DNA of 50,667 nucleotides, taken from IMG/VR virus record IMGVR_UViG_3300037808_001107, positions 1 to 50,667 of that record; one strand, 5' to 3'. This stretch comes from a virus. Numbering within the stretch: the stretch's first letter is position 1; every line of letters begins with the position of its first letter. Below the pieces are notes generated by a model. It was not told the DNA's origin, ran no database searches, and saw only the letters and a program-made list of their open reading frames with translations. Below, one piece after another: positions 597-39,769 of this stretch. The position numbers and the translations under genes are program-made.

Positions 597-605
597 ATAA
601 ATAGT
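597..605 (-). promoter_or_regulatory. Late-promoter candidate ACTATTTAT
   Basis: Read on the minus strand this is an exact ACTATTTAT, followed by AATATG, 20 bases before the ATG of the second tube-like gene. It begins directly after the T-tract of the upstream terminator, which is where a new transcript would have to start. The same element recurs ahead of other virion genes in the window. Confidence 0.55.
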
Positions 606-641
606 AAAAAAACCAAGAAATATCTATTATCTCTTGGTTTT
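606..641 (-). terminator. Rho-independent terminator after the gp26/frameshift region
   Basis: There is a perfect 10-bp inverted repeat (arms 609-618 and 632-641, AAAACCAAGA with its complement) around a 13-base loop. On the minus strand it is followed by a run of seven T. The stop codon of the small downstream frame lies inside the first arm, so the coding end and terminator overlap. The run of T also exists on the other strand, so it could act in both directions. Confidence 0.8.
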
Positions 642-878
642 ATAAGATTTTTTCATCTGATCATTTTCTTTTTGCATCTGATCTGATAGGCGCTGTAAGA
701 ACCAGCGGCGGATCTTAATGGGAAGATTATACGCCTCGATGAAACTCCACCCCCCATGGTATTTCATCAAAAAGAACTCTTCATAAACAGATTGGATATA
801 TTCATCACTTAGGCCAAAAAAAGTCCGTAGTGAACGGCACCTCCAGATCCGTTCCATAATTACAAGAAGGGCATTCAA
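627..878 (-). CDS. Small overlapping frame after gp26, probable frameshift extension
   Basis: This frame overlaps the end of the gp26-like gene by 74 bases. A free-standing start would be a TTG, or an ATG seven codons later, and neither has a ribosome site in front of it. The conserved-looking part, YHGGWSFIEAYNLPIKIRRW, lies wholly after the overlap. A run of seven U in the overlap would let ribosomes shift from the gp26 frame into this one and add about 62 residues. Overlapping frames joined by frameshifting are typical of phage tail assembly chaperones. From memory, a small protein with a similar GGF/W-S-x-x-EA-x-x-LP motif follows gp26 homologues in other T4-like phages. It is either a C-terminal extension of gp26 or a separate 76-83 residue protein. 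The first is more likely because no start signal is visible. Confidence 0.6.
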   Translation of the reverse strand: MNALLVIMERIWRCRSLRTFFGLSDEYIQSVYEEFFLMKYHGGWSFIEAYNLPIKIRRWFLQRLSDQMQKENDQMKKSYKTKR

Positions 879-1668
879 ACTCTTGAGTCATGTCAATGTT
901 TGGAATATTTTTCTCGTAGATCGCGCGCAGATGTTTTGAATCTCGGGCTGGCATAACTTCTATAAACTCTCCAATTAAACTTCTTGTTTCAATTCCATTA
1001 GCAGAAACAATGATAGCTTTCAGCATATCCGTAAGTTTTGTTTCTGGTAGATTTTTTCTCTTTTTTGATTCTTGTAAGCGAGCCATATACATCTCATCTT
1101 TTCCAGTCATCGGGCGCATCTCAACTTGAACTCCTGTAATCGGAGTAGTTATCATAAGAGTGCCATTTTCTGTCCAAGATGCATCTTCCGCGTCTTCATT
1201 AAACGCTTTTATTTGTACATCGGAAAGATCAAACTCATAATCAGAGGATGTCATACACGCTGGACATACTACCTTAGTTGAATATTCTGCGCCATATCCA
1301 TTAATTCTAGCCGCAATGAGGATAGCATTTCTATCCCCCGATAGCAACCCATCAGATCTTACCGACTTATCAATAATAATATTCTTAAGAAATCTCTCAA
1401 TTGCAATACCTTGTTTAATAAGTGTTTTAGAAGAAAGAATATCTTCCTCCTTCGCTGTCATATATTTAATTTCAATACTTTCCACACCACATAGAGGATG
1501 ATCCCCTGGATAGCAGCGCCCCTGTGAAGGAAGCTCTACGAACTCTGTTGGTGTTGCGAAAGATAAGCCCTCAGATTGTGACTGCATTACTGCTGCAATG
1601 GAGTCATCCGAGGGGGTTTCAGTAGCGTCCGGTTCTTTACCTAGTCTACTGCCACTATTTCTAGCCAA
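805..1668 (-). CDS. gp26: Baseplate hub/assembly protein, T4 gp26-like
   Basis: The 287-residue protein has the family signature near residues 45-53 (VELPSQGRCY), followed by an acidic, helical middle region. It carries two cysteine pairs, CPAC at 135-138 and CPSC at 266-269, which could together bind one zinc. This matches the T4 base plate protein family, whose T4 member takes part in assembling the baseplate hub. It sits after the tube gene, as expected for a tail module. The C-terminus is DFFWPK unless ribosomes shift at the U7 run, in which case about 62 further residues would be added. The family call is firm. The exact role in this phage is inferred. Confidence 0.8.
   Translation of the reverse strand: MARNSGSRLGKEPDATETPSDDSIAAVMQSQSEGLSFATPTEFVELPSQGRCYPGDHPLCGVESIEIKYMTAKEEDILSSKTLIKQGIAIERFLKNIIIDKSVRSDGLLSGDRNAILIAARINGYGAEYSTKVVCPACMTSSDYEFDLSDVQIKAFNEDAEDASWTENGTLMITTPITGVQVEMRPMTGKDEMYMARLQESKKRKNLPETKLTDMLKAIIVSANGIETRSLIGEFIEVMPARDSKHLRAIYEKNIPNIDMTQEFECPSCNYGTDLEVPFTTDFFWPK
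814..825 (-). other. Candidate programmed frameshift site, U7
   Basis: The minus strand reads GAC UUU UUU UGG in the gp26 frame and ACU UUU UUU GGC in the overlapping frame. Re-pairing of a Phe tRNA on UUU would give a +1 (or -2) shift, placing the overlapping frame after residue 284 of gp26. Without a shift, gp26 ends three codons later. A GGAGGU sequence lies 16 bases upstream of the U run and might act as a stimulator. Use of this site is inferred, not shown. Confidence 0.5.
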
Positions 1669-1696
1669 TTTTCACCTCTTTTTTGTAAATTTATAT

Positions 1697-2320: not shown

Positions 2321-5209
2321 TTAATCCGCGAAATCCGCGCCTTGATTCGTAATAATGAAGTCAAGCGCGATGTATTCAATCGCTTTAGCCGGCTTCAAGT
2401 AAATCTTGGCGTATACGATATTTCGGTCAACCAAATCTGGTGTAGTTGTGGTGCTATCCAAAATTAATCTGAAATCACTTAATCCGAGTCTCGTCTGGAC
2501 ACTCGCCAGGAAGGGTACTGCTACAGCTTTAAACCTGTCCCAAGTAACCTCTATGTTCTGGTCAAACAAGATTCCGTTTGCGAATATTGAAATTTGTTTC
2601 TTAACATAAATCAGCATTCTCCTAACATTAATTCTATCCAGTGCAGATGGTGTTGCTTGAAGCGTTTTCTGTCCAAAGATTACAATTCCCTCATTCGGGA
2701 AAGAAGCAATTGGATTGATATTCGCATCGTAAAGTTTATCTCTATCCTTAGAAGTTAATCTTTGACTTACATTCAAGACCGGAATACCAGCGGAGCCTTG
2801 ACTCAGTCCGCCTCTATTGAATCCAGCAGGAGCAAACCATACTTCCGACTGTGCTTCTGAAGAAGCCATAGTTCCCAAGGCGACCACAGAAGGTGGCACC
2901 CAGAGCCGGTTATTAGAAGTAACTGTATCTTGAATTTGGACCCACGGATAGTAGGTGCATGCGTAAGAAGTATTAATCTGCCTATTTTCTAAATCAATGA
3001 TTGCTTGCTTAACCGATGTCGCGGCGCGCGCTGTTCGATCTGAATAGGCGGTTGAAGTTTCTGTGAAAGGTGTATATACATTGTCTATATCAATGATTCC
3101 CAACGCATCCCCTCTATCTTCGCAAACCTGTATCACATGGTTTGTAATGGTATCGTTAGTTATACCTGGGACCGTGATTATATTGCAAGCGACAGCTTCT
3201 GGGTCGGAAACTATGCTTACCCCCTCTCGAAGAGTGTTCAGAGCATAATTTGTTGAAAGAGTGGCAGATGTCATTCCAGCATTTCTAAAAGGTTCAACCT
3301 CAAGAATATTTAATCCGTCAAATCCACCAGCGAGGGGAGAGTTAAATCTCACCCAGTCATCATCAATAACATCTTTCCAGCTTCCGGTGGCAGAATATGA
3401 AGTTCCGTTCACTGTTGCTGTTCCAGCGCGGCTACCTGATTGCCAATAGACGTAGTTCTTGCCAAGCGGCTTAACGAGGTCGTCCAAGGAGAATATCCAT
3501 TGTGGGGTTTTATTCACTGTTGAAATACCGCCCAATGGATATACATAATCTGGATATCCAGTACCGGGCTTGTCGCTGGAATAAAAAGTAGTATTTTCAA
3601 GATATGCCGAAACATTCAGCCCGAAGTAAGCATTTGTCTGATCCGTCAGTGCTCCAGCAGATGACGAAACTCTCAATTGACTTTCTGGGAAGACTATATT
3701 AGCTATATAATCCCCAAGAGAGCCTGTATTAATATTATCGCCATCGCCATTCGGCTTATCCTCTGGACCCGATGCTCCAGTTTCCAGAACTGCCGCGAAA
3801 GAAGAGCCGGCAGATCCACTTGCTATGGTAACGTCGATGATCTTGTCGGGCCCGTATACGCCAAAAGGCACTAATACGGGGTCAGCAATACCATTTCTAA
3901 CCGTGTCGTCTACTTCGACCCTAACATATCTAGAGGCATTATCATACTCACCATATTCTCTTAAGATGGTTTCTTCCTGATCCCATACTCTATATTTGTC
4001 GCCAATCTTCTTGGAAACATAATTATCCGAAAGGGGATTCAAATCACAATTTGAAAACCTTTCGACTATTTGTGGATTACTATCTGTATCATCGGCCTTT
4101 CGAAGAATAACTGTAAACGACCCGTAAGGGTGAGTACCTGTAGTATCTCTGGAATATGTTAAATCTTGAATGGCTACTTTCAAATTATCCTGAACCCATT
4201 TACCCGGTTCCAGCGCATGCACTTTGAAAAGCTTTTGCATCTGGCCGGCTCTATAAGAGCCAGTGACTGTACTAACATCTTGAGAAAAATACCATCCCGT
4301 AGAGGCCCTTGAGGCATCTGTTCTATAGTGCGACTTTGTATTATTATCAAATGGTAAAATAATGCCGTAAGAGGCAGTTGCTAATTCGCCCGTATCCAAC
4401 TTCTTTTGAATGAAGGATTCATAACTCTCACCAAGCCAATAAAGGTTTTCTCCGCGTGCAAAGGAACTAGCAGGAATAATTGGGCCCGCTGCTTGCGGGT
4501 TTGTATTGAAAACATTTCGAATAAACGTCTTAGATCCTGGATCAAAATTGAATGTTGTTCTGTAAACAACCTCGTCGGACGTATTCTTAATATATGCGGT
4601 GTAATCTGGTCCGGAGCTAGCTCCCACATCCGCAGATGGATTAATAAGAACGCCGATACCGCCTATCTCTGGTGTTGTGGTGCCAGCGAGAGTACCGGAA
4701 AGCGCGATGGCACTGCCCGTAGCAATGTACCAAATCGCGGCCAAATAACCATTGTGTGGGTTGACGGTTGTAGAGGAAGAGTGATTGCATAAGAATAATC
4801 CGTAAGCACCACCATTGTCCAACACCGAGGTACTAAGATCTGCGGTTCCCCAACCGGCTGCGCCGATATCTCCCGAAGCGTCTTCATTTGCCATTCCAGC
4901 TAAACGAACAACAGTAATAGCATCAACGCTGTTTCTCAAATAAGCTTGAGCGGCATAAGATGTATATGTCGGACCTTGATAGTTTCCGTCTCTCCACACA
5001 TCCCCAGTTGCTTTGCCCGGAACTGGATTTCCAAATATATCAACAAAGTCTGAAAAAGAGTTGATTTTCACTGGCTCCATGGCCGGCCCTTGTGGCAGGC
5101 GACCAATAACCACTGGCCCTGCATCTCTATTAACCTGCGGAAGCTGTGAATTATCAATTTCCTTGACAAAAACGCCTGGAGATACAAATTTAAATTTTTT
5201 AACTGACAT
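2321..5209 (-). CDS. gp18: Contractile tail sheath protein, T4 gp18-like
   Basis: This 962-residue protein has both ends typical of sheath monomers. The N-terminus, SPGVFVKEIDNS, is the arm that links subunits. The C-terminal region (about 850-960) has IEVTWDRFKAVAVPFLASV and the LVDRNIVYAKIYLKP strands that build the conserved sheath core. T4 gp18 has 659 residues, so about 300 extra residues lie in the middle (roughly 100-600). That region is rich in Gly, Ser, Thr and Asp and probably forms surface domains. It is followed directly by the tube gene. The ribosome site GAGGAG precedes the ATG, and an exact late motif lies 41 bases upstream. The sheath call is secure. The role of the inserted domains is unknown. 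Confidence 0.92.
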   Translation of the reverse strand: MSVKKFKFVSPGVFVKEIDNSQLPQVNRDAGPVVIGRLPQGPAMEPVKINSFSDFVDIFGNPVPGKATGDVWRDGNYQGPTYTSYAAQAYLRNSVDAITVVRLAGMANEDASGDIGAAGWGTADLSTSVLDNGGAYGLFLCNHSSSTTVNPHNGYLAAIWYIATGSAIALSGTLAGTTTPEIGGIGVLINPSADVGASSGPDYTAYIKNTSDEVVYRTTFNFDPGSKTFIRNVFNTNPQAAGPIIPASSFARGENLYWLGESYESFIQKKLDTGELATASYGIILPFDNNTKSHYRTDASRASTGWYFSQDVSTVTGSYRAGQMQKLFKVHALEPGKWVQDNLKVAIQDLTYSRDTTGTHPYGSFTVILRKADDTDSNPQIVERFSNCDLNPLSDNYVSKKIGDKYRVWDQEETILREYGEYDNASRYVRVEVDDTVRNGIADPVLVPFGVYGPDKIIDVTIASGSAGSSFAAVLETGASGPEDKPNGDGDNINTGSLGDYIANIVFPESQLRVSSSAGALTDQTNAYFGLNVSAYLENTTFYSSDKPGTGYPDYVYPLGGISTVNKTPQWIFSLDDLVKPLGKNYVYWQSGSRAGTATVNGTSYSATGSWKDVIDDDWVRFNSPLAGGFDGLNILEVEPFRNAGMTSATLSTNYALNTLREGVSIVSDPEAVACNIITVPGITNDTITNHVIQVCEDRGDALGIIDIDNVYTPFTETSTAYSDRTARAATSVKQAIIDLENRQINTSYACTYYPWVQIQDTVTSNNRLWVPPSVVALGTMASSEAQSEVWFAPAGFNRGGLSQGSAGIPVLNVSQRLTSKDRDKLYDANINPIASFPNEGIVIFGQKTLQATPSALDRINVRRMLIYVKKQISIFANGILFDQNIEVTWDRFKAVAVPFLASVQTRLGLSDFRLILDSTTTTPDLVDRNIVYAKIYLKPAKAIEYIALDFIITNQGADFAD

Positions 5210-5250: not shown

Positions 5251-5259
5251 ATAAATAGT
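5251..5259 (-). promoter_or_regulatory. Late-promoter candidate ACTATTTAT
   Basis: Exact copy of the element on the minus strand, in the 80-base gap between the gp14-like gene and the sheath gene, 41 bases before the sheath ATG. The rest of that gap contains only the ribosome site and no visible terminator. Confidence 0.55.
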
Positions 5260-5290
5260 TCACGGAATTGCGAAAGCCTCAATTAATATT

Positions 5291-6674: not shown

Positions 6675-7940
6675 TTATCCTTGGAAAATTAACATTGGTA
6701 CTTTTGTTTGTATCACGTTAACCGCCTCTGTTATTTCTGCATCTCTCTTAGCTAGTTCTGCATAAGTTAACTCATCTAAAATTGTTTTTAATTCTTCTCG
6801 TAATTTTTCTTGCTCATTCTGGGCCTGACTTAAGAGATCAGATGCATTTAAGGTAATATCAGATCCTGGAATTGGAATGGGATTGAATTTTCCTCGAATT
6901 TGGCCCAGAGTCTCTTTTGATAGGGCCAACGCAAATCTTCGGATCCACTGTTTTCCTATCGCATTAATGTTTTCATAGGGAAGATTATCGAAAGGAATAG
7001 TATTAATATTATTAACTCCACCTATTCCAGTATCCACATCGGAAGCCTCATCCCAACTATCAGGTATAACTGAAAATTCTACCCACATAAACCTGTATGT
7101 GCCTACCAGTTGCGGCTGAGGAAATATTCTTAACTTATTATCCTTTAATTCATATGAATAGTGAGATAGGCGTGTGAACAAGTGGTCTTCATAAGCCTTC
7201 GCTTGTAACTTATTCTGCCATACAGGAATTACCTCGAAAGAAGAATCGTCAGTATATTGTCCATAATATAGAAGGTTTCCGACAACATTCAATCCTCCGT
7301 AATAGCCGAAGAACCTCCACATTGCACCAGGTGTTTTAAAGAAGACTTTTTTGATTATAACCCTCTTATTTCCAACAATACCAGCAAAGATGGCCGGGTC
7401 GCCATTGGGCTGAACTCCGGTTGCCGAAGAACCTGAGATAATTGCTTGTAAGTCATAGTCTTGTTCTCCCTCCGTAATCTGAAAAGATGCCGAATAAATT
7501 GGAATTGTTCCTCCGACATCAGCGTTGAAAGAAAAACTATCAGCTACCCTCCTTTCATATTCGAAAGTAACGCGGGGGAATTTTAAATTAACATTAGTCG
7601 GCCCAGTTACAACATTTCCATCCTGATCAAATGTTCCCGTTGTTTGTCCAAGAACGTTGGAGAGGATATTTTTTGATTGATGCAAATTGACCAAATAACT
7701 ATATTCTAAAACAGCTTCTTCATAGTTTGCATAAACATTTCCGGCCAGCATTTCAATGTCTAAGACATCGCCACCCAATTTCTTATATGTATAAGCAACT
7801 TGATCAGCGGCGCCAGAAAGAAAAGCATTAGATGTATATATACCAAGCGGCAATGTTGCAGCAACATTTCCGGCTGTTCCGGTTATGGGTAAGATCGCCT
7901 TACTCATTTGGCTGACTGGTGTTAGTGTTGGCAATGCCAT
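6675..7940 (-). CDS. gp13: Neck/head-completion protein, T4 gp13-like
   Basis: This 421-residue protein is encoded directly after the major capsid gene. It has the YTYKKLGGDVLDIEM segment followed by YANYEEAVLEYSYLVNLHQ, a helical block I associate with T4-like marine phage neck proteins in this position. The C-terminal part (about 270-400) includes LRIFPQP and WIRRFALALSKETLGQIRGK, typical of head-tail connector or completion proteins, and ends in a coiled helix. T4 gp13 has 309 residues, so this one is longer. The start has a GGAGGG ribosome site, and a terminator plus late-type motif lie just upstream, so the neck-to-sheath genes can be transcribed apart from the capsid gene. Confidence 0.65.
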   Translation of the reverse strand: MALPTLTPVSQMSKAILPITGTAGNVAATLPLGIYTSNAFLSGAADQVAYTYKKLGGDVLDIEMLAGNVYANYEEAVLEYSYLVNLHQSKNILSNVLGQTTGTFDQDGNVVTGPTNVNLKFPRVTFEYERRVADSFSFNADVGGTIPIYSASFQITEGEQDYDLQAIISGSSATGVQPNGDPAIFAGIVGNKRVIIKKVFFKTPGAMWRFFGYYGGLNVVGNLLYYGQYTDDSSFEVIPVWQNKLQAKAYEDHLFTRLSHYSYELKDNKLRIFPQPQLVGTYRFMWVEFSVIPDSWDEASDVDTGIGGVNNINTIPFDNLPYENINAIGKQWIRRFALALSKETLGQIRGKFNPIPIPGSDITLNASDLLSQAQNEQEKLREELKTILDELTYAELAKRDAEITEAVNVIQTKVPMLIFQG

Positions 7941-7956: not shown

Positions 7957-7965
7957 TTAATTAGT
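7957..7965 (-). promoter_or_regulatory. Late-promoter candidate, variant ACTAATTAA
   Basis: Minus-strand ACTAATTAA sits between the capsid terminator and the gp13-like gene, 16 bases before the ATG. It is the weakest match in the set (two changes from ACTATTTAT). Its place right after a terminator and right before a ribosome site supports it. Confidence 0.4.
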
Positions 7966-8036: not shown

Positions 8037-9776
8037 TTATGACAAATCTTGAACGACGACCAGACCGTACATATCCGGACGAACCATCTTCTTGGCATAT
8101 CGAGTCATGACGCCTTTGCGCGGCACGAAGTCCTCGGTACCGAAGATTGTTGGAGTCATCTGGAGAGGTACATACGGTGCGTACACATATCCGCTTTCGA
8201 GGAAAGAAGAGCCTTTACGTCCTGCGAGAACAACGTTCCGTGGGAAGTAAGGATCGACGTAAACGTCAAACTTCTTGCTCAAAGAGCCGACTTTAACAGC
8301 ACCAACTTGACCACGATCATCATCGTGAGTCACGGCACCACGGAATCCAGCAGTAAACTCAAGAAGGTTGGCAACTTCAGGTGAACACACGATGAAGTTA
8401 GCGCCGCCTCGAAGGGTCTTGCGATGAATTTGAGCCGAGACATCATTAATGGTCTCAATCAGAGTTTCATACCACTCGGATACGTTACCCGTGAAGTCAG
8501 GAAACCCACTAGTTGGAAGTAGTGCCGCGCCCGTTGTGCGGTTCACAAACTTACCAGGAAGTCGCGACCAGAACAAGGTTTCAGCAGTTGCACCTTTCAC
8601 GAGATCTTCCAAGATTTCTTGGTCGATTTCAAGAGCGATGTGCTCAGACAAGATAGACGTAAGCTCAACCTCTGCATCGAGATTGTGATACGCATTCAAG
8701 TCCTGCGCCAATTCTGGCGTCCATTTAGCCTTGAGCTTCTTGGTCTTTGCCGTGACAGCCACAGAGTCGACCTTAATATCGATTTCAGGGATGCCTGCAT
8801 TGTTTTCTAATCCCCATGTATCAAGACCAGCAACAGAACCAACCGCGTTGCCAGCGGCAAAGTTGTCATCAATGATAAATGTCCCACTATCGTTAGCAAC
8901 CATACTAGCAGATAGAGTTACGGGAGTGCCCGCTACGGAAGCGCAAACAAGCAAGATATTTCCTGCTGTGTTCGGGTCATCGCGTGTGAGGCGGCGAACC
9001 TGAGTTGTATCAACAACAGTACCATCTTCCAAAGTAATGGTAATATAATCCTTGATATTAAACTGTGCGCCAGGGGCGAAAGTTGTCAAAGGAACAGAAA
9101 TAACACAAGCATTTGTGCCAGACGCAATATCTGAATCGAAACGGACCAATCGATCTCCGAGGAGAGCGAGAGCGGCGCCGGCTCCAGCAGTTCCAGTCCA
9201 ATCAGAAAGTGCTCCAGGGGAGCCTCCTCCGACAGTTCCAGAGGCTATTGCAAGTCCACCCCAAACAGTGTCGAGACGAACAGAACCTGTTGGGCTCGAA
9301 TACCCATTGTTCAAAGAATAATAGCTTTGTTCAGCGAGGTTCCCAACCAATGAAACACCACCAGTAATCTGTGAAGCGACGACACCACCACCGTATACCG
9401 AAGTATTGGCAAGAGTATCAAGGCGGGCCCGATCATAGGTGAAGTCCAGGAAGAAGATGAGGCCAGAAGGAAGGCTCATCGGTTGAACGCTAACAAGGTC
9501 GTTAGCAATTAGGCCGCCGAATACTCGGCGGACGATAGGAAAGGCGACGGAAGCAAAACCTTCAACGTCACCAGAGGGTGAGCCAGCCATAGTAGAAGCC
9601 TCACGAAGTAGTTCCTTCGCTTGGTTTTCTAGCAATGCTGCCATCCCATATTTAGCACGTTCGTTCCCGAGTCCCTCTAAAAGTCCAGTCTTTTCCCACT
9701 TGGAGAGAAGAGCAGATCCTTCTTTAGATAGATCGCGACGAACAATACCTTCAGTTAATTTTTTAAGTATAGACAT
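8037..9776 (-). CDS. gp23: Major capsid protein, T4 gp23-like
   Basis: At 579 residues it is somewhat longer than T4 gp23 (521). The block FASVAFPIVRRVFGGLIAND near residues 73-92, followed by VSVQPMSLPSGLIFFLDF, is a hallmark of this HK97-fold family. So is the C-terminal SGYVYAPYVPLQMTPTIF and FVPRKGVMTRYAKKM. The first 60 or so residues are a helical propeptide. The sequence LLREAS at 56-61 fits the T4 prohead protease rule (L or I, any residue, E, then a small residue), so cleavage after E59 is predicted. It is encoded directly after the scaffold gene and followed by a strong terminator, as expected for the most abundant virion protein. Confidence 0.95.
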   Translation of the reverse strand: MSILKKLTEGIVRRDLSKEGSALLSKWEKTGLLEGLGNERAKYGMAALLENQAKELLREASTMAGSPSGDVEGFASVAFPIVRRVFGGLIANDLVSVQPMSLPSGLIFFLDFTYDRARLDTLANTSVYGGGVVASQITGGVSLVGNLAEQSYYSLNNGYSSPTGSVRLDTVWGGLAIASGTVGGGSPGALSDWTGTAGAGAALALLGDRLVRFDSDIASGTNACVISVPLTTFAPGAQFNIKDYITITLEDGTVVDTTQVRRLTRDDPNTAGNILLVCASVAGTPVTLSASMVANDSGTFIIDDNFAAGNAVGSVAGLDTWGLENNAGIPEIDIKVDSVAVTAKTKKLKAKWTPELAQDLNAYHNLDAEVELTSILSEHIALEIDQEILEDLVKGATAETLFWSRLPGKFVNRTTGAALLPTSGFPDFTGNVSEWYETLIETINDVSAQIHRKTLRGGANFIVCSPEVANLLEFTAGFRGAVTHDDDRGQVGAVKVGSLSKKFDVYVDPYFPRNVVLAGRKGSSFLESGYVYAPYVPLQMTPTIFGTEDFVPRKGVMTRYAKKMVRPDMYGLVVVQDLS

Positions 9777-9792: not shown

Positions 9793-10800
9793 TTATTTGT
9801 TTGTCTTTATTCCAGCCAGTATTTGCATCCTGTCCGCTTCCGGAGATTCAACAGATCTGACTGCTCTTCTAGGTAAAGTGGCAGAGGGTCTTTCGATGGT
9901 CTCGCGTAGTGATTGTGGACGTGCTTTACCTGTTACACTTCCCACCGCGCTTTTTAGAGTTTCGAATATTACCTTTGCTTCTTCAATAGAATCTGATTTC
10001 GACAGAGCTTCGACAATTTTCTTTTTTTGCCGCTCATTCAAGGAGTTGTCTGTTAAGACCTGATTCGTGTAAACTAATCTCGCATTTGAGAGATTAACTT
10101 TATTAAAACTTTCTTTTAAGATCTGGAGTGCTTTTATCAATTTTGTATTTTTTGATTTGAGGTCTCTATTTGCCTCTCTAAGTCTTTCTCCAGCCTGTGT
10201 CAATGCTTTTGCTTTTGCTAGCGCCTCTGTTCCGGAGCGCTGCGCCAAAGCCATTTCTTCTTTATAGTTCATGATGGGCTCGGGGGTGCCAGCCCAGCCG
10301 CTTTTTTCAGGAACAATATCAACGATGAGTTCTTCCAAGATCTCATCAAGATCTTCCAAATCTATCTCTTCTTCTAAGGTTACGTCAACAGGAACAGATG
10401 AAGTCTCTGCCTCTTTGGATGAAGGTGGCTCTGTACCCTGCATATCATCAACAAGATTTTCGTGTGGTGACGGTTCACCAATTAAATCTCCTTCTGCATC
10501 AGCGAGAGCTTCAGCCATATCTTTAAGTTCTTCCATACTTAATACGATCTCTTGTTCATCAATTGATTCGGGTGGGGCCCCAGCAAGAGGAATACTATCT
10601 TCCAGAGAGGTAGATAATTCCATTTCACCCTCAGCACCGAGAGCGCCAAAGGCAAGTTCATCGTCTTGCTCCAACAAACTTTCCACTGCCTCTTTGATAT
10701 CGGTTGAATATTTATTCAAAATTGCAGATTCAGCATTTTTAATGGCTGCCTCTTTTAAAGCGGCTGCATCAATTATTGCTTGTTCTAGTAATGAAGACAT
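9793..10800 (-). CDS. gp22: Prohead core scaffold protein, T4 gp22-like
   Basis: The 335-residue protein is highly charged and helical. An acidic middle section (about 50-165, many Glu and Asp) is followed by a basic coiled-coil section with LREANRDLKSKNTKLIKALQ. It lies directly before the capsid gene, the position of gene 22 in T4. Gp22 forms the internal core of the prohead and is degraded by the gp21 protease. Two early sites (ALKE-A and DIKE-A) match the T4 cleavage rule. The family call is from architecture and position rather than strong motifs. A late motif 30 bases upstream suggests scaffold and capsid share a transcript. Confidence 0.78.
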   Translation of the reverse strand: MSSLLEQAIIDAAALKEAAIKNAESAILNKYSTDIKEAVESLLEQDDELAFGALGAEGEMELSTSLEDSIPLAGAPPESIDEQEIVLSMEELKDMAEALADAEGDLIGEPSPHENLVDDMQGTEPPSSKEAETSSVPVDVTLEEEIDLEDLDEILEELIVDIVPEKSGWAGTPEPIMNYKEEMALAQRSGTEALAKAKALTQAGERLREANRDLKSKNTKLIKALQILKESFNKVNLSNARLVYTNQVLTDNSLNERQKKKIVEALSKSDSIEEAKVIFETLKSAVGSVTGKARPQSLRETIERPSATLPRRAVRSVESPEADRMQILAGIKTNK

Positions 10801-30704: not shown

Positions 30705-31095
30705 ATTCAAACCCAAAAGCCTCCTCAATTTCTCTGGCCAACTCCTCGGGCTGCTCATCGAAATCCCTGATGAACTTTTTTATATCTTCTTCTTTATTTT
30801 TGTTTAAATTGGCGACTGACTCATTATATTTTTCTGTCATATTTGTCAGATCTCGCTTGAATTTGGCTATGGCCTCTTCGCGTGCGGCCAATTCTTTTTG
30901 ATGTAGGGCTTCCAATGTTGCGATCTGCTCTTCATAGCTTGTGCTCATTACATCCATCGACTTTTTGAGTGATGAGTAGTCATTTTTTGTCACAAAAAAG
31001 AGGATAACCATAATAACTAAGCCGACACCTTGCCAGTTTTTAACCAAGAACGTGCCGACTGATTTAAACAAGTCTCCAATGTTGATGTTGATCAC
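30694..31095 (-). CDS. i-spanin-like membrane coiled-coil protein (Rz-type candidate)
   Basis: The 133-residue protein has one N-terminal TM (about 20-38, GVGLVIMVILFFVT) and then a long charged coiled coil (about 45-110, including EEQIATLEALHQKELAAREE). This is the inner-membrane spanin topology, in which the coiled coil spans the periplasm and drives outer-membrane disruption. Translation starts at a GTG that overlaps the holin-like stop as TAGTG, with AAGGG in front. Its 3' end overlaps the next gene in another frame, as Rz and Rz1 genes do in many phages. Function is inferred from topology and context only. Confidence 0.55.
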   Translation of the reverse strand: MININIGDLFKSVGTFLVKNWQGVGLVIMVILFFVTKNDYSSLKKSMDVMSTSYEEQIATLEALHQKELAAREEAIAKFKRDLTNMTEKYNESVANLNKNKEEDIKKFIRDFDEQPEELAREIEEAFGFEYVE

Positions 31096-31295
31096 TAGGC
31101 GCCCTTCAATTTAACAATCGCGTCAATCACAGACTGACCACCGATATATAGCGCGCTCAAAATGAGCCAATCGCCACTATCAATGTGAGAAGTAAACATA
31201 AGCCCAGTAGCGGCTGCCCAAACAAGTAATTTGCGGGAAACCATCTTTTCAAGTGCGATATCAATTACACCTTTTGCTGTTTCTACCATAGTCAT
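31095..31295 (-). CDS. Two-TM holin-like protein
   Basis: The 66-residue protein has two hydrophobic segments, RKLLVWAAATGLMFTSH (about 21-37) and DWLILSALYIGGQSVI (about 42-57), with short charged ends. This is class II holin-like. It opens M-T-M with a strong AGGAGG site four bases from the first ATG and ten from the second, so both starts could be used. It is the first gene of a cassette with spanin-like genes and follows a late-type motif. No endolysin is seen in the window. The holin call is from size, topology and neighbours. Confidence 0.55.
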   Translation of the reverse strand: MTMVETAKGVIDIALEKMVSRKLLVWAAATGLMFTSHIDSGDWLILSALYIGGQSVIDAIVKLKGA

Positions 31296-31315: not shown

Positions 31316-31324
31316 ATAATTAGT
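31316..31324 (-). promoter_or_regulatory. Late-promoter candidate ACTAATTAT before the lysis cassette
   Basis: Minus-strand ACTAATTATAGAGTATAA starts two bases after the end of the SbcDC gene and lies 20 bases before the holin-like ATG. The first 14 bases equal those ahead of the 130-residue protein gene. It would separate late lysis from the early replication genes upstream. Confidence 0.48.
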
Positions 31325-31325: not shown

Positions 31326-34300
31326 CTATTGTTCAATAAAGGCATAACCATTTTTCTTGTCAATTATAATCTGCATATCAACACAATCTTTAAGGCTGTC
31401 CAAATGAGAGATAAGAAGGACTGTCTTGAAGTAAGATCTAATCAAGTCTAGGATGTCAACAAACCCTTGCATATTATCTTCATCCAATGCAGTTCCTGGC
31501 TCATCAAGGATGAAGAAGTCCGACTTTGGAAGGGAAGATATACTCAATAGTGCTAAACGAATGGCCATTGCGGCGATTGTTTTCTCTGCTCCAGACCCCA
31601 TTTCTAGCGGTCGAGGTTCATGGCGTGGATGTTTGATGAAAATATCAAGTCTTTTACCATCATCCTCGAAGAAAACCTCAAAATCAACGATATTTGCCAG
31701 AATTTTGGCAATTTCGTCATTGATTACAGGTAATTTACGCTTAATAACATCATAGGCTATCCCATTTGGGTGCATACATCGTAAATAAAGATCATAAGAA
31801 GAGAATTCTTCCTGTAAATCAAGGTATTCGTTCCTCTGAACTATCAAATTATTAACTTTTTGCTCTAAAGAACCAACAGACTTATATATATTCAGGATAG
31901 ATGATGTACACTTTTCATGATTACTTTTAAAATTCTGTGATTTAATCCTTAAACCCCTTAGTTTCTGTGATAGATTCCCCAGATTTTCAATAATTTCTTT
32001 ATTTAACTCATATTCTGAGACCTTTTCTTCTGATGCTTCGATTTCAGACATCAAATTTTTAATGATACTGGCATTTTTCTCTATCTTAAGATCATAATTT
32101 GTTATTTTGTTGGACAATGCATTCTTTTTATTAACAATTTCATTGTATTTTCCTATATGATCTTCAACCTCATCGGGGTTAATCTCCTCGATGTCGTCGT
32201 TCAGGTCATCAATCTGCCCCGAGAGATTCTCGGCCTCTTTTTCGTTAAGTGGAATTGTAGCTTTAGAGACATATGCGTCCTTAATGAATTTACATTTGGG
32301 ATATGCGGTACCACAAGGAATCCCCCGAAGCAATTGGAGCTTGTTTTGATTTCTTTTAAGCTCATCTTCTTCCACACTCAATGAGTTTTCTAAAATTACT
32401 AGCTGATTCAGCAACTCATGAACCCTTTCCTGCTTTTCAAAGAGGGCTTTCTTATCAAATTCTCCCAAAAAAAGAAGGATCTTTCGATACTTCTCTTTAT
32501 CTGCATTTCTTTCTACATAAAATTCACTATTTTGATCCGAAACAGAGATTAATTGGTTCTTTTTGTCATTTAATTCTTGTTGAACTTTCATAACATCTAT
32601 GATTTCGGCAGGAATTGACTTTATCTTTTCATTTATTTCCCCTATTTCTTCATTGCATTGAGAAATATTAAAATTGATAGTCTCGCAGCGCTGTTTTTTC
32701 TTTTCAAGATCATTGTTTGCGCCTTCAAGCTCTTCTTGTGCAGATAAAATATCACTATTAAAGTCTCTTCCTTCTGATTTTCTTAAAGCGCCTTTTGTAT
32801 CGGACGCATCCTCCTTGGCTAATCGAAATTTATGTTCAAAAAATTCCAAATCAAGAAACTTGGCAAGAATCTCCTTTCTCTTTGTTGAGCCTTCTTTAAT
32901 AAAGGTAAGAGAATCGAGTTGGGAGGCCATCGATGAATAAAGAAAATCTTCTAATGTTCCAAAAACCTTTCTAATGTTCTTGTCAGTTTGATTTCTCGTC
33001 AAACCATTAAGGCTCTCCATATCTCCAAGCGCCGGATCGTATACTGTAAACTCTACATTTGTTTTTGCTTCCTGAGTTACAGACCCTTTTAGTTTTCGAG
33101 TATACTTTTCTGAATTTCTCTCAATATAATAATCTTTATCTCCAATAGAGATTTTAACTTTACCGGTGCCGACTTCTTTATTTTGATTTATAATATTTAG
33201 GTTTTTTCTGTCGTTTTTTGATGTCGAATTGAACACTGTATATAAAATTGAATCAATAATGCTAGACTTTCCAGAAAAGTTCTTTCCAAAGATGCCGACA
33301 ATCCCCTCTAAGTTATCAAAATTGATGCTATTTCCTTCTGCATAATTGAATAAATTGTTCCATTCAATAGAGCGAAGCCTCCAATTGATGTTTCGAGATA
33401 CCTCTTCGTTCTCCTCAGCGATCTTGTTGTATTTTAAATTGAGATTAATGACCCTTTGCATCAATTCGTCGTCAACCTCAAAATCTTTCAAGTACTCTTT
33501 GATGAGTTGCTGTTGAATTTGAATATTCCTAAGGTCTTCGGTCTCCAATCCATCTGTAATATTCTGGATGTCTCCTCTTTCTCCTGTTGCTCGGTTCAAA
33601 AAGGTAATACTCTCTGGCTTAAACTTTCGTTTTGCCACTTCTATTGCTTTTTTCATAACATCAAGAGGTAAGTTATTATTTGAAACCAGTCTAAGTCTGG
33701 CAGATTGAGGTATATTCTTTGCTGCACCTCTCGGCATCTTGCCTTTTGGCGTTAACTCGATGGTTATGAAGGGTCTAGGGTTTTTAATCTCAAAATGTTG
33801 GCAAGTAAAGTTTTCTTTACTTTGAATATCCCATAGTAAAAATCCCTTGTCGTTTGTTTCTCCGTGATTTTGCTGGATTGTGGATCCGGGATAGCGGATT
33901 TTACCTTCGGCATCAAGTCTTTGGTCAGTTTTGTGAATATCTCCCAATAAACCATAATCGTGTCCTTCAAAAATCTCAATAGGATGCTCTCCATGAGTCA
34001 TAACCCAGCCCGTGTCAGTGACAACACCGGAAACCGATCCGTGATAAAGAGCAATATTAATTTTGCTCGGATCCGAAGGTTTAACCCACCCTTCTTCATC
34101 AAAAACAGACAAAATATGTAGCGTTACAGTCGCCGATAGGGGCATTTCGCCTGATTTCTTAAGCAAGTGTAGGTTTGGGTGAGATAAAGCGTCTACGATA
34201 GGTGTCAGAGCGTCCTGACGACTACTATTGCGAAGGTTTCCATCGTGATTCCCCAAAATGACGTAAGTTGGTGCAATATGGGCGAGATTGCTCAAAAAAT

Positions 34301-34484
34301 CAGAGCACATTTCGACAAATTCTGGACTAATTTGTGTTTTTGTGTGAGCAATATCACCGCAATGAATGATATAATCTGGTTTTTCCTTTCTTAAAATATT
34401 GTATAGCTCGTTGAAAACAATCCTATATTCATAATGATACTTTAAATTTTTAATATGTGTGTCAGCAATGTGGGCAATCCTCAA
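31326..34484 (-). CDS. Fused SbcD-SbcC (Mre11-Rad50) nuclease-ATPase
   Basis: One frame of 1052 residues holds both partners that are normally separate (T4 gp47 and gp46). Residues 1-330 are a metallophosphoesterase: IADTH (D8, H10), HCGDIAH (D44), LGNHDG (N79, H80), YHGS (H148) and LGDIHK (H184). Residues 370-1052 are the ATPase: Walker A FGKNFSGKSS near 399-408, coils either side of CGTAYPKC (724-731), a MGSGAEKTIAAMA signature near 962-975 and Walker B FFILDEPGTALD (D994, E995). It probably trims DNA ends for recombination-dependent replication. Start is TTG after GGAGAG. The usual CxxC zinc hook is replaced by C-x6-C. Fusion is seen directly; activity is inferred. Confidence 0.9.
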   Translation of the reverse strand: MRIAHIADTHIKNLKYHYEYRIVFNELYNILRKEKPDYIIHCGDIAHTKTQISPEFVEMCSDFLSNLAHIAPTYVILGNHDGNLRNSSRQDALTPIVDALSHPNLHLLKKSGEMPLSATVTLHILSVFDEEGWVKPSDPSKINIALYHGSVSGVVTDTGWVMTHGEHPIEIFEGHDYGLLGDIHKTDQRLDAEGKIRYPGSTIQQNHGETNDKGFLLWDIQSKENFTCQHFEIKNPRPFITIELTPKGKMPRGAAKNIPQSARLRLVSNNNLPLDVMKKAIEVAKRKFKPESITFLNRATGERGDIQNITDGLETEDLRNIQIQQQLIKEYLKDFEVDDELMQRVINLNLKYNKIAEENEEVSRNINWRLRSIEWNNLFNYAEGNSINFDNLEGIVGIFGKNFSGKSSIIDSILYTVFNSTSKNDRKNLNIINQNKEVGTGKVKISIGDKDYYIERNSEKYTRKLKGSVTQEAKTNVEFTVYDPALGDMESLNGLTRNQTDKNIRKVFGTLEDFLYSSMASQLDSLTFIKEGSTKRKEILAKFLDLEFFEHKFRLAKEDASDTKGALRKSEGRDFNSDILSAQEELEGANNDLEKKKQRCETINFNISQCNEEIGEINEKIKSIPAEIIDVMKVQQELNDKKNQLISVSDQNSEFYVERNADKEKYRKILLFLGEFDKKALFEKQERVHELLNQLVILENSLSVEEDELKRNQNKLQLLRGIPCGTAYPKCKFIKDAYVSKATIPLNEKEAENLSGQIDDLNDDIEEINPDEVEDHIGKYNEIVNKKNALSNKITNYDLKIEKNASIIKNLMSEIEASEEKVSEYELNKEIIENLGNLSQKLRGLRIKSQNFKSNHEKCTSSILNIYKSVGSLEQKVNNLIVQRNEYLDLQEEFSSYDLYLRCMHPNGIAYDVIKRKLPVINDEIAKILANIVDFEVFFEDDGKRLDIFIKHPRHEPRPLEMGSGAEKTIAAMAIRLALLSISSLPKSDFFILDEPGTALDEDNMQGFVDILDLIRSYFKTVLLISHLDSLKDCVDMQIIIDKKNGYAFIEQ

Positions 34485-35469: not shown

Positions 35470-36057
35470 TTATTCTGGCTCTTCGACAGCGTATCCGGTT
35501 TTTCCAAATAAATTTTTATTATTGACAAACTTCTTTATCATAATATCAATATCTGGTATGGGGGCATCAGGATTGGTTTTTATTTGTGTTTCGACATCTT
35601 TGAACATTTTTTCCATAAATTCTTTTTCTAAACCATCATCAACTAATTTTTGAAGACCGTCATCGAGATTGAATGCATCTAAGACTGGATTTGCTTTTGT
35701 AACCTCGTCTTCCTCCTGCCCATAAGTTTTATAAATCCCCCTTACTCTATTTACGATGTTTTTTGCGGCGACGATGCTTCCAACGACTGGTACGAATGAG
35801 GCCACGAGGTCCATCACATCGCTGCCCAAATCTTTTGCCAACTGATTTCGTTTTTCTCGGCTAAGTTCGCCAGCCCTTACTGCTTGTGCGATTTTCAGCG
35901 CTTGATCCAACTGTCTCCAAGTTAATTTTCCGGACTTCATTTGTTCTCTTGATCGGGTGCGCTCATCTTCCTGATCCTGTCTCCCTGCTTCCTCTTTCCA
36001 TCCTTCATTTATTTCAAAATTTCTCCAATTTTCCATAATAAGCTTCATTTTAGACAT
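35470..36057 (-). CDS. Internal-protein candidate with T4-like capsid-targeting start
   Basis: This 195-residue protein opens MSKMKLIMENWRNFEINEGW. It resembles the T4 internal-protein targeting peptide (MKTYQEFIAE then A) in its MK start, aromatic-x-x-F core, and an I-N-E-G site that fits the prohead-protease rule after residue 18. The middle is charged and helical (REQMKSGKLTWRQLDQALKI). A hydrophobic helical stretch (VMDLVASFVPVVGSIVAA) lies near 90-107. It could be packaged with the DNA and ejected into the host. No enzyme motif is visible. A late motif 20 bases upstream of the ATG agrees with a virion role. Confidence 0.5.
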   Translation of the reverse strand: MSKMKLIMENWRNFEINEGWKEEAGRQDQEDERTRSREQMKSGKLTWRQLDQALKIAQAVRAGELSREKRNQLAKDLGSDVMDLVASFVPVVGSIVAAKNIVNRVRGIYKTYGQEEDEVTKANPVLDAFNLDDGLQKLVDDGLEKEFMEKMFKDVETQIKTNPDAPIPDIDIMIKKFVNNKNLFGKTGYAVEEPE

Positions 36058-36063: not shown

Positions 36064-36576
36064 CTATTTCCCTTGCAATAAATAGTGTCCAGCGCGGGCA
36101 ACAACAATTGCATCTGCAATATCGTAGCAATATTTTTGAACATTTCCAAATCTGGTATAAATAATCTCAAATTCTTTACTTTCAATGAAGTGCTCCATAA
36201 CAACTTCTTTTGCCTTCTTGCCTCGGGCTATTTTTATGCCACATTTAGAGCGAGCACTGATCGGACTTATATAGTTCGGTTCCATATCATATATATTATA
36301 ACACATCCAAGATATAATGCCATTAAATCGTTGAAGAATTGACATAGTTTTGGCAGTTGATCCACCTCTTCGGAAAAACATGAGAGCTTGTTCTATAAAA
36401 ACGTGTTTTACATCGTACTTTTCTTTAACCTCTTTTAAAGTTGTTTCTACTTTTCTGGCTTTTTCGAAGAATGAACCAGTCTTGCGTAAATCAATATAAT
36501 CTGCATAAACTATTTTGTCATTTTCGAGGATACAGACGCCGATAATGCTTGTACTCACATCAAGTCCCAGAATCAT
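36064..36576 (-). CDS. RuvC-type Holliday junction resolvase
   Basis: The 170-residue protein has the RNase-H-like acidic set: LGLDVSTSIIGV (D6), HVFIEQALMFF (E62) and YDIADAIVVA (D152, D155), plus a SAKTMSILQRFNG-like helix typical of RuvC relatives in phages. Length matches E. coli RuvC (173). T4 uses a different enzyme (gp49) to clear branched DNA before packaging; here RuvC may do that task. The ATG overlaps the stop of the virion-type gene upstream as TAATG, so a late-expressed resolvase is suggested, in keeping with a packaging-time role. Confidence 0.87.
   Translation of the reverse strand: MILGLDVSTSIIGVCILENDKIVYADYIDLRKTGSFFEKARKVETTLKEVKEKYDVKHVFIEQALMFFRRGGSTAKTMSILQRFNGIISWMCYNIYDMEPNYISPISARSKCGIKIARGKKAKEVVMEHFIESKEFEIIYTRFGNVQKYCYDIADAIVVARAGHYLLQGK
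36078..36086 (-). promoter_or_regulatory. Late-promoter candidate ACTATTTAT inside the resolvase end
   Basis: Exact copy located in the last codons of the RuvC-like gene, 20 bases before the ATG of the 195-residue protein. Being inside a coding end shows the element is kept even where it must also encode His-Tyr-Leu. Confidence 0.52.
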
Positions 36577-37745
36577 TAAAAATCCACTTTTAGTTTGAAG
36601 GTAAATTCTCTACCTTGAGTTTTTTTAACAGGATTTGCCACCGAAGCAATTCCAATTAAATTCTTATCCTCATCATATATACCGACTTGCGATATATAAG
36701 TTATTTTTTCAAAAGAACCTGTCGGATCCGCATAAGAGGAGCTAACAATATTTTTTATTTGTAAATTCTTATTTTCTGAATAAATGTATGCTCCAGTTAT
36801 GGGCGTCGTCGTTTGACCATACTCCACATATGTCGAATTATTTGAATGATTCATCTCTATTTTGTTTGCATGAGCAAACATAGTTAAAGTAGGAACTCTA
36901 TTAACACCCTTCATATCAAAATCATAACTGGAAGATGGTATTACACCGGCAGGTATTCCGTCATTAGCACCAACGCCAAAGAAAAGCCATGAAGATGTCA
37001 TAAGGTTAGTTCCATCGTCTAAATAATTTCTAGCGATTCCCGTTTCAAGATACCAAGATCCAGTTAAAAGAACAAATCCTTCATTATATAATGCAACGCC
37101 GGCGACGGAGCCGGAGCCGGTACTACCAATAGGGCCGGTTTGAACCATCTCTCCGTTTTGTCTCTCGTCTTTTAGGGTTCCAATAAGTGTGCCTGAAATA
37201 TAGAAGTTTAATTCTAAGTCTCCTTTCTTTATCGAGTCTCCGTAAAGGATTGATGGAATGGAAATTAAATTAAGCGGCTGTGTTCCCTTATTCCCCAAAC
37301 TCGAATCATATTTATAATGAGAACTCATTGGAATATAATAGTTTAAAGTATTTTTAAGGGCCCCAATCTCCGGGCGGGCGACACCAAGTTGATAAAAATC
37401 TCTTTTTATGCTAGATGAAAGGGGGTAACTACCCGTTATTGTATCTCCGAACAAAAAATCGCTGTTAAATGTTGTAGTAGAAACTGTCCTTGGCCCAATA
37501 AGACTTCCTTCTTTTGTGACAAATGGATAAATTAGCCCAGTATCGGCTTCATTTCTATCTACATTTATTTCATATAAAGAAACAAATCCAGTTGGAACCA
37601 TGGGTACTGGATTAGTGAATTCACCAACAAGAATGGTTTGATTGTTGTGGTAAACTTTAGAATTATATATTTTAAAGGTTTGTTTTGGATTTGTTTCCAA
37701 AACGTTATAAAGTATATCTTTTTCTTCAAACTTTTTAAACGTCAT
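36576..37745 (-). CDS. Virion protein, paralogue of the next gene upstream
   Basis: The 389-residue beta-rich protein ends with QVGIYDEDKNLIGIASVANP-VKK and FTFKLKVDF. Its upstream neighbour ends with TIGLYSDDNELLAVAKVSEP-LKK and LTLRVRLDY. Both have long Ser/Gly-rich middles and a central FxGVGANDG- or CGAAYD-like region. These C-termini are a pattern I remember from virion proteins of marine phages encoded near baseplate or appendage genes. No ribosome site precedes the ATG; a late-type motif lies only seven bases upstream, so its message might be leaderless. Specific role unknown. Confidence 0.6.
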   Translation of the reverse strand: MTFKKFEEKDILYNVLETNPKQTFKIYNSKVYHNNQTILVGEFTNPVPMVPTGFVSLYEINVDRNEADTGLIYPFVTKEGSLIGPRTVSTTTFNSDFLFGDTITGSYPLSSSIKRDFYQLGVARPEIGALKNTLNYYIPMSSHYKYDSSLGNKGTQPLNLISIPSILYGDSIKKGDLELNFYISGTLIGTLKDERQNGEMVQTGPIGSTGSGSVAGVALYNEGFVLLTGSWYLETGIARNYLDDGTNLMTSSWLFFGVGANDGIPAGVIPSSSYDFDMKGVNRVPTLTMFAHANKIEMNHSNNSTYVEYGQTTTPITGAYIYSENKNLQIKNIVSSSYADPTGSFEKITYISQVGIYDEDKNLIGIASVANPVKKTQGREFTFKLKVDF

Positions 37746-37752: not shown

Positions 37753-37761
37753 GTAAATAGT
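37753..37761 (-). promoter_or_regulatory. Late-promoter candidate, variant ACTATTTAC
   Basis: Minus-strand ACTATTTAC with only TGATGAT between it and the ATG. If the element acts like a -10 box, transcription would begin at or next to the start codon. No Shine-Dalgarno is present in the gap. Confidence 0.42.
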
Positions 37762-37771: not shown

Positions 37772-38818
37772 TTAATAATCTAATCTTACACGAAGAGTTA
37801 ATTCATTTGTAGGATCTTTCTTCAGAGGTTCAGAAACTTTTGCAACAGCCAGAAGCTCGTTATCGTCAGAGTAGAGTCCAATTGTGGTAATATAAGCTGC
37901 GGGAGAATCTGTGGAAATATTCTTTACTCTAATTTTGCTTCCGCTAAGATATGTTGGGTTCGAACTATAATTAAATTCATTTGAACTAGCTCGACAGAAA
38001 TAAATTGTTGAATTCAACTCCGTGGTATTGTTAAAATCGAGATCATCCCACCTATTTCTAATTCCATCACATGCAGAAGAAATTTCTGTTCCTGTTAAAA
38101 CGGCATCAATGGAAGAAGTATCATAGGCTGCTCCGCAGGCTCCGAATTCCCCGTCAAATACAGAGGCGGTTAAAACAGCAATACCAGCTTGATAATAAAG
38201 CAGGCCGACGCCAGATCCTGGAACAATTGGTGATCCAGATCCAGTATACAAAATTCCATATTCTCCTGCTGGTGAATTTGTCCGGTAGTCATTATTTGCT
38301 CCATAATCCGAGAGTGTCAAGAGATCGGTGAAATCTACCGCACAAGGAGTTCCCCCGCCTGACGCGACTGTTAAAACAAAAGATGCTTTTTTGATTTCAT
38401 CTTTTGATAAAAGTCGTGCAAAATTAATAAAAACACATTCACTCATTTTATCGGAAGTATCAGTAAAGTCACCATCCCTATCAAACTGGCGAATGCTTCC
38501 AGTTTGGTCATAGCCAACTAAAACTTGAGCCATTTGATTATACATATTGATCTTTTTGGCATTTTGAACAGAAGCCGATCCCGATAAGCCAGAACCCGCC
38601 GAATACCCAACTGTCAAATCAAAAATGTGATTCGCAGATGAGCTTAAATAGGGATAATCGTATACACTCTGGAACATCCCGTGAGCATAATTCTTAACAT
38701 TTTCGTCGCTATAAGTGCCTGAAACAATACTCCCTGTAATGGGGATTGCCTCGTGAAGTAATGTTCTCGTATTTGCTATATCTTTGTCTAATACTAGAGT
38801 TTTATATGTAGTCGCCAT
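37772..38818 (-). CDS. Virion protein, paralogue of the next gene downstream
   Basis: The 348-residue protein has a N-terminal section with TYKTLVLDKDIANTRTLLHE, Ser/Gly-rich beta regions, and the C-terminal IGLYSDDNELLAVAKVSEP-LKK motif shared with the 389-residue neighbour. An AAGGA site precedes the ATG. Tandem placement and matching ends indicate gene duplication. It may form a ring or collar with its partner, but no family function is known to me. Confidence 0.6.
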   Translation of the reverse strand: MATTYKTLVLDKDIANTRTLLHEAIPITGSIVSGTYSDENVKNYAHGMFQSVYDYPYLSSSANHIFDLTVGYSAGSGLSGSASVQNAKKINMYNQMAQVLVGYDQTGSIRQFDRDGDFTDTSDKMSECVFINFARLLSKDEIKKASFVLTVASGGGTPCAVDFTDLLTLSDYGANNDYRTNSPAGEYGILYTGSGSPIVPGSGVGLLYYQAGIAVLTASVFDGEFGACGAAYDTSSIDAVLTGTEISSACDGIRNRWDDLDFNNTTELNSTIYFCRASSNEFNYSSNPTYLSGSKIRVKNISTDSPAAYITTIGLYSDDNELLAVAKVSEPLKKDPTNELTLRVRLDY

Positions 38819-38828
38819 ATTCTAATCC

Positions 38829-39731
38829 TTATGGGGTTAATTGCTTAAATTTTAACAATCTTACTGGAAGATCTATTCTATATCCCGTTGTTTGGCCTAT
38901 TACCCTTATATTTGTATCTATAAAATAAAAAACTGGGCCGGCGCCGACTGTACTTCCCAGAGTCGTAAATAAATAGGTACTAGATTGTACATCTATGGAA
39001 GATTGCACTCCAATAGTAAGCTGACTTCCGCGAGGGCCCCGTATTGGGTTATCAGAGCTTGTATCTGAAGAGTTGTCAATAACAAAGGGGCTTTCTGAAA
39101 CCGAATAAGATGCAATCGAATCATCATCAATAAAAGATGGAGTCTTCGCTAGTCCATCGGTGTTAGTTAAAGATAAGAGCCTGTTATCCATTTCAATAGT
39201 ATATTGAGTTTCGTTTAAATCAATGGGGATGGAGGCTTCTTTGCTAATCGCCTGCGTGTTTAATCCCTGATCAAAAACAAGAGGGCGCGCGCTATCTTTG
39301 GGCGAGAATGCATTAAAATAATCGGAGCCGGATAAGCCACCTTTCCCAGATTCGCTCGTATCTGTATCTACGGTAATCGCCAAAAGGCCGGCGGCGAGGG
39401 ACGAACCCCCAAGGACGGTTCCCTTATTAGAATTATATAAAACAACTGGCAAATACAATACATTTGTTCTAGTAATTGTTATTAGTTTAGATTTCATCGT
39501 CGAGGTGTTATTCGTAAAAGATTCTAAAACTGGAGTTTGTAAAATTTCTAAATCATAAAAAGCAGATCCTCTTGAATCTAGTCGATTATAAAGCTCATAG
39601 TTAATTTCGTCATCACCGAGAGCAAATTTTGTGATTTTAAAGCTTCCGTCGCCTCTTGCTAATCTTTCTCTTCCTGTATCGGTCAGAACCGCATCTAAAA
39701 TAATATCACCACTGTTGTCTAAAAAAGCCAT
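38829..39731 (-). CDS. Virion protein with LDAVLTDTGRERLARG N-terminal domain
   Basis: The 300-residue protein starts FLDNSGDIILDAVLTDTGRE and continues with FKITKFALGDDEINYELY. This domain start is shared, in changed form, with the 344-residue protein further upstream (LDIQLTPYGKHLLSRG, AFFDDNILYD). I recall the LTDxGRxxLA-x-G pattern from many phage tail-associated proteins. The remainder is beta-rich and ends with FFIDTNIRV-like strands (YFIDTNIRVIGQTTGY). An exact late motif lies 29 bases before the ATG. A tail or baseplate role is likely but unspecified. Confidence 0.6.
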   Translation of the reverse strand: MAFLDNSGDIILDAVLTDTGRERLARGDGSFKITKFALGDDEINYELYNRLDSRGSAFYDLEILQTPVLESFTNNTSTMKSKLITITRTNVLYLPVVLYNSNKGTVLGGSSLAAGLLAITVDTDTSESGKGGLSGSDYFNAFSPKDSARPLVFDQGLNTQAISKEASIPIDLNETQYTIEMDNRLLSLTNTDGLAKTPSFIDDDSIASYSVSESPFVIDNSSDTSSDNPIRGPRGSQLTIGVQSSIDVQSSTYLFTTLGSTVGAGPVFYFIDTNIRVIGQTTGYRIDLPVRLLKFKQLTP

Positions 39732-39760
39732 ATTAAGTCCTCATAATACTTTTGTACAAG

Positions 39761-39769
39761 ATAAATAGT
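39761..39769 (-). promoter_or_regulatory. Late-promoter candidate ACTATTTAT
   Basis: Exact copy in the 72-base gap before the 300-residue virion gene, 29 bases from its ATG. The gap otherwise holds a GAGG ribosome site and A/T-rich sequence with no clear hairpin. Confidence 0.55.

Follow-up and report, generated by a model that had tools for sequence, protein, structure and literature searches.

The repeated element ACTATTTAT in a 50.7-kb virus record (IMG/VR IMGVR_UViG_3300037808_001107; the whole of it is referred to as the window) is very probably the -10 part of a late promoter of Far-T4 phages, one that would be served by a sigma factor of the gp55 type and would include a second box upstream. 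Nearly all genes of the window lie on its minus strand, among them those for a T4-type major capsid protein, portal, large terminase, prohead protease, tail sheath, tail tube, baseplate hub, primase, RuvC and a 46/47-like protein. The capsid protein is nearest to those of Flavobacterium phage immuto, Microcystis phage Mel-JY01, Rhodothermus phage RM378 and uncultured phages (40-48% identity), and the window is therefore placed in the Far-T4 group; it is a fragment of a "Far-T4" myovirus. Such phages are widespread in marine and fresh waters, and their genes for transcription regulation escaped detection in the paper that described them (PMC4360716). The comparisons set out here make it almost certain that the element belongs to a genuine late promoter found throughout the lineage, a large group of distant T4 relatives in the ocean; its bipartite form is new, and a newly recognised gp55-type sigma is its probable partner. 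No earlier report of the motif, or of a fused gp55-gp33, was found in a literature search that had most subscription journals outside its reach.

The element is promoter-like in being strand-specific, lineage-wide and located upstream of virion genes. Comparison was made with 80 closer relatives of the window capsid protein (56-78% identity); non-coding DNA makes up only 3-6% of the related genomes. A set of 81 sequences (1.02 Mb) contains 129 copies of ACTATTTAT in gene orientation against two reversed, and no other 9-mer is as enriched upstream of open reading frames (ORFs); the ratios in six long contigs are 11:0, 9:0, 7:0, 7:0, 5:0 and 2:0, which adds up to 41:0. The degenerate form ACTA[A/T]TTA was counted 480 times sense and 31 times antisense in 2.48 Mb of related contigs, and 319 and 5 times, respectively, in their non-coding DNA. 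Strand bias is strong in nearly all of 17 long records (weakest in G022, 13:6). These counts establish the strand and position of the motif directly, and the statistics that an earlier, sequence-only reading of the window had proposed as a check thus strongly favour the sense strand and non-coding DNA over an equal spread. An unbiased 8-mer count over the regions preceding ORFs put ACTATTTA/CTATTTAT first in the genomes of two marine relatives and CTATTTAT near the head of the list in immuto, while ATATTTAT and TTATTTAA emerged in Mel-JY01 and RM378, respectively (26 of the 38 RM378 occurrences being upstream of genes); the identical script recovered TATAAATA in T4 as a control. The core common to Far-T4 is TATTTA, where that of T4 is TAAATA.

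Set in the register of the T4 late promoters (TATAAATA), the element reads A-C-T-A-[T/A]-T-T-A from -13 to -6, departing from T4 at -12, -9 and -8, and the sole preferred downstream purine falls at +1 (G 0.47, A 0.36 in a 167-site logo). The sequence-only reading had proposed a likely late promoter of a distinct, reversed-looking kind. The first part stands, as the element is promoter-like, strand-specific, conserved and found before virion genes, and its carriers encode a gp55-type sigma; the second was not borne out. The element lies on the coding strand, in the orientation of the genes, and aligns directly to the late promoters of T4 and of Aeromonas phage Aeh1, so that a reversed T4 late promoter is rejected; TATTTAT is the reverse complement of ATAAATA through a coincidence of the AA to TT change at -9/-8. 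The late promoters of Aeh1, (a/g)CTAAATA, carry a/gC instead of TA at -13/-12 (PMC2988020). They share with the element A-C at -13/-12, T-A at -11/-10 and T-A at -7/-6, but have AA at -9/-8 where the element has TT or AT, and no upstream box is reported for them in PMC2988020. In T4, gp55 flips A-12, A-9 and A-8 into pockets formed by Y97, N13/H95 and T99, and the late promoters have no conserved -35 sequence, gp33 contacting the DNA backbone only (PMC7892883).

A second box, of which the sequence-only reading made no mention, lies upstream of the element. Its consensus is roughly G-[T/G]-C-[A/T]-TTTT at -33 to -26, the sites favouring G at -33/-32 and T over -29 to -26 (TTTT), and it is 13 +/- 1 nt from the -10 element; the site before the capsid operon of the window (10831-10859) reads GTCATTT-N13-ACTATTTAT. 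The logo was built from 167 non-redundant sites from which terminator-followed sites had been removed. When each gene context (63 in all) was scored by a model trained without it, the best match to the box was within +/-1 base of the expected place in 80 of the 167 sites, as against 13.5 if placement were uniform, so that the box and its fixed spacing are direct observations. The possibility that the box is merely a terminator stem with its T-run is rejected, as it persists in these terminator-free sites and across gene contexts. In T4 (1 of 12 sites), cyanophage S-PM2 (0 of 15) and immuto (1 of 11), all small control sets, the box model detected nothing at the expected place, and it gave a weak signal in Mel-JY01 (6 of 22 versus 1.8 expected).

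The search for a gp55-like sigma factor suggested by the sequence-only reading succeeded in relatives, the window fragment itself having no sigma gene. A weak Sigma70_r2 match in a 160-kb relative led to a family of hundreds of proteins of ~220-250 aa, which matches the T4 late sigma family phrog_234 (all 72 members at E <= 1, the best at 4.5e-9), and exactly one phrog_234-matching gene is present in each of 10 long genomes; homology of the family to gp55 is thereby established. Among named phages, full-length matches are found in immuto, Mel-JY01 and an unannotated 484-kb genome, whereas the other matches listed, outside Far-T4, are gp55 genes, mostly of cyanophages, and cover the N-terminal half only. 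The predicted structure (mean predicted local distance difference test score, pLDDT, 84) consists of a sigma-2-like half and a C-terminal four-helix domain; fold searches with this model ranked sigma factors first, with weak E-values against the PDB, and a PDB sequence search with the sigma alignment gave no match. Of the pocket residues, Y97 is invariant, T99 is replaced by S in the marine clade and by Q in immuto, N13 by T or D, and H95 by F, the last also in cyanophages. The -10 bases that changed are those read by the gp55 pockets, which is suggestive of covariation between bases and pocket residues. None of 76 sigma genes has the motif within 300 nt upstream, as expected if the sigma is expressed before the late genes. 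The annotated sigma of RM378, which resembles extracytoplasmic function (ECF) factors (phrog_1740), was rejected as the sigma of the marine clade, where it has no convincing homologue.

The conserved C-terminal helical domain of the Far-T4 sigma is absent from gp55 of T4 (185 aa) and of cyanophages (155-164 aa), and contains a conserved basic stretch, IEIFNKKAIYLYLREITGLNTKQVVNNLNK, predicted to be helix-turn-helix-like. It is a candidate, and the likeliest one, for the reader of the upstream box. Profiles for gp33 (phrog_254) and the gp45 clamp (phrog_223) matched none of the 10 long genomes, a result that a diverged gp33 could escape and that in diverged phages is no proof of absence; the gp44 profile gave weak matches, which belong at least in part to other AAA proteins. 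A family A DNA polymerase is present in 8 of the 10. The system resembles T4 late transcription, which employs gp55, gp33 and gp45, in two respects: virion genes are preceded by an octamer that occupies -13 to -6 and reads in the direction of the genes, and the phage encodes a protein of the gp55 family with sigma region 2. It differs in the core (ACTA[T/A]TTA in place of TATAAATA), in the length and extra domain of the sigma, in the lack of detectable gp33 and T4-type gp45, and in its box at -33 to -26, where promoters of the T4 type have no conserved sequence upstream of -10; being T4-like but with an upstream element, it is filed as a variant of the T4-type late promoter system. S-PM2, a marine T4 relative with ATAAATA late promoters, likewise has a gp55 homologue with an alignable sigma region 2, but this is of the short cyanophage form without the C-terminal domain, its gp33 and gp45 genes are separate, and its promoters have no upstream box.

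Late timing of the promoter is suggested by the homology to gp55 and by the genes downstream. Copies in the window stand mostly before virion genes, including those for tail tube, sheath and head-tail adaptor, an operon whose last gene is that of the capsid protein, and probable fibre genes. Of 12 exact copies in immuto, 10 fall at 81-154 kb, where the baseplate, head and tail genes are located, and the first 59 kb contain none. Separately, immuto carries a second repeated promoter-like element, AGTTG...TATATTTAGgtatcaataattaa, before many small genes (L081-L084, ~60-76 kb); this element is similar to the TTG/TAnnTTTG promoter of Bacteroidota and may be the early promoter of the phage.

A model may then be proposed in which the phage gp55-type sigma binds host RNA polymerase, and the complex would open the DNA at ACTA[T/A]TTA (-13 to -6) and start RNA at the purine at +1, driving mainly virion genes. 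The box at -33 to -26 would provide a sequence-specific contact that T4 late promoters lack, and it may be read by the C-terminal domain of the sigma, which would replace the arrangement of gp33 and gp45 in T4. It is possible, at somewhat less than an even chance, that Far-T4 phages possess a natural unsplit late sigma, in which a gp55 sigma-2 domain and its own box-reading domain serve a bipartite late promoter, with gp33 and the replication clamp dispensable.

Several observations weigh against the model or parts of it. Some sites precede genes without an assigned role, and about half of the sites have no clear box. Profile comparison of the sigma family with the single T4 gp55 sequence is weak (E 0.12). 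The C-terminal domain matched sigma region 4 neither by Pfam nor by profile comparison with E. coli region 4 sequences, and comparison with gp33 gave no identification, so that neither identity is established; its fold neighbours, DNA-binding types such as homeodomain and winged-helix, are weak (E > 1). In immuto this domain is divergent and no such box was seen at 11 sites, which weakens the link between domain and box. Further, RM378, also a Far-T4 phage, carries a motif akin to the element (TTATTTAA), yet it encodes an ECF-like sigma and gave no gp55 match.

Among other explanations, a gp55-type late promoter with its box bound not by the C-terminal domain of the sigma but by another phage protein, an activator with a MotA-like role, survives best, although it is rather unlikely. 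The MotA box of T4 (TGCTTTA) sits at ~-30, as does the box described here, which bears it a faint likeness, and the immuto observation also fits such an activator. However, no MotA homologue (phrog_1345) was found in the 10 long genomes, and the sigma has a C-terminal domain of its own that is conserved and basic and is predicted to be helix-turn-helix-like. A MotA-dependent promoter of the T4 middle type, to which the T-rich box near -30, ~12-13 nt from the -10 element, might otherwise point, is rejected on the same lack of MotA in Far-T4 relatives; T4 middle promoters also differ in their host-type -10 TATAAT. Use of the promoter by a host sigma factor at middle or late time, with no phage sigma involved, would accord with the general bacterial architecture of a -10 element and an upstream box at sigma-like spacing, but is improbable. 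Neither the consensus ACTA[T/A]TTA nor ACTATTTA fits TATAAT (sigma-70) or TAnnTTTG (Bacteroidota), and the small-gene region of immuto has a separate promoter type, TTG...TATATTTAG. Moreover, the -10 motif of the marine relatives is also found in a Flavobacterium phage without Shine-Dalgarno sequences at its genes (4% versus 30-32%), and a core common to phages of such unlike hosts indicates a phage factor. A signal at the mRNA level, such as a processing site or translation element in 5' leaders, is very improbable; it could explain the proximity of the element to start codons, as well as the RM378 motif that often stands a fixed 15 nt from the ATG, but the distance to the start codon varies from <10 to >60 nt in the 2.48-Mb set, a partner lies at fixed distance upstream and a purine downstream at the place of +1, and some copies directly follow terminators. 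Coding or compositional coincidence, in favour of which one conserved in-gene match is indeed a coding coincidence and shuffles of the window hold 0.76 exact copies, has next to no probability, as it is already contradicted by the strand ratio, the non-coding enrichment and the conservation in unrelated gene contexts.

The promoter and sigma proposed here would supply Far-T4 with the likely components of late transcription, the sigma being annotated "hypothetical protein" in immuto and Mel-JY01, and late operons in uncultured genomes can be approached directly through the motif. It has been posed as a puzzle that T4 divides its late sigma between gp55 and gp33 and that a single-chain form is absent from nature (PMC2988020); an unsplit Far-T4 sigma, if real, would be that form. 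If the extra domain reads the box, the system would be a clamp-independent, sequence-directed cousin of the clamp-dependent late switch of T4. As the host of immuto is cultured, the system is open to testing.

Within the window, the inventory of the sequence-only reading was accurate: six exact copies of ACTATTTAT and five genuine variants, all on the minus (coding) strand, precede ORF starts by a few to ~42 nt, with a Shine-Dalgarno-like stretch between at most sites, and no further exact copy exists on either strand (six found versus 0.76 expected; 0 of 100 shuffles reach six). Exact copies lie at 597-605, before a small ORF (450-593); 5251-5259, before the tail sheath gene (2321-5209), with box AGGCTTTC at 5272-5279 (-33 to -26); 10831-10839, before 9793-10800 (scaffold position) and the major capsid gene (8037-9776), with box GTCATTTT, an exact consensus, at 10852-10859 across a 13-nt spacer and a predicted +1 G at 10826; 21613-21621, before 20046-21596, which heads a series of large probable fibre genes, some of them rich in repeats, with box TGATTTAG at 21634-21641 and a predicted +1 G at 21608; 36078-36086, before 35470-36057 and overlapping the end of a RuvC-like gene (36064-36576); and 39761-39769, before 38829-39731. 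The variants are ACTATATAT at 2298-2306, before the tail tube gene (1697-2272); ACTAATTAA, with two mismatches, at 7957-7965, before the head-tail adaptor gene (6675-7940); ACTAATTAT at 11293-11301, before 10877-11269, and again at 31316-31324, before 31095-31295 (a small protein with no family match), the latter with box TGCCTTTA at 31337-31344; and ACTATTTAC at 37753-37761, only 7 nt from the start of 36576-37745. The copies at 597 and 7957 directly follow terminator-like sequences (hairpin and T-run), as had been claimed. ACTAWTTA occurs 14 times on the coding strand and once on the other; matches beyond those reported earlier lie within genes on the coding strand at 23221, 27374, 30060 and 40013, and on the other strand at 43140. 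The match at 23221, part of a copy of ACTATTTAC at 23220-23228 inside the small gene 23105-23392, was rejected as a promoter, there and in the homologues of the gene, since it consists of conserved codons for the peptide TELFT, recurring in many relatives; such a site is a trap for motif counts.

Further features were noted in passing. RM378 (L086-L088) has its ECF-like sigma near the capsid gene in place of a gp55 homologue, and TTATTTAA followed by AAAA precedes ~26 of its genes on both strands, often 15 nt from the ATG. In the window, a single 1052-aa ORF (31326-34484) joins an SbcD/gp47-like phosphoesterase N-terminus to an SbcC/gp46-like ATPase (phrog_1649, phrog_77), a natural gp47-gp46 fusion of genes that are separate in T4. 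Three adjacent large proteins (12082-20046) contain many near-identical modules, e.g., GDISGSGNISGSxFYGDGSNLT, and are probable fibre proteins sharing repeat cassettes. The segment MKLTxxQLRxxIKEE, found at the start of or within otherwise unlike small proteins (21634-22092, 23400-23738 and 29203-29889, and also in the relative G001), looks like a common targeting or assembly tag. Finally, small proteins that begin with MKVGDLV or VQVGDLV, apparently tandem duplicates, are clustered on the reverse strand of G001 at ~168-178 kb.

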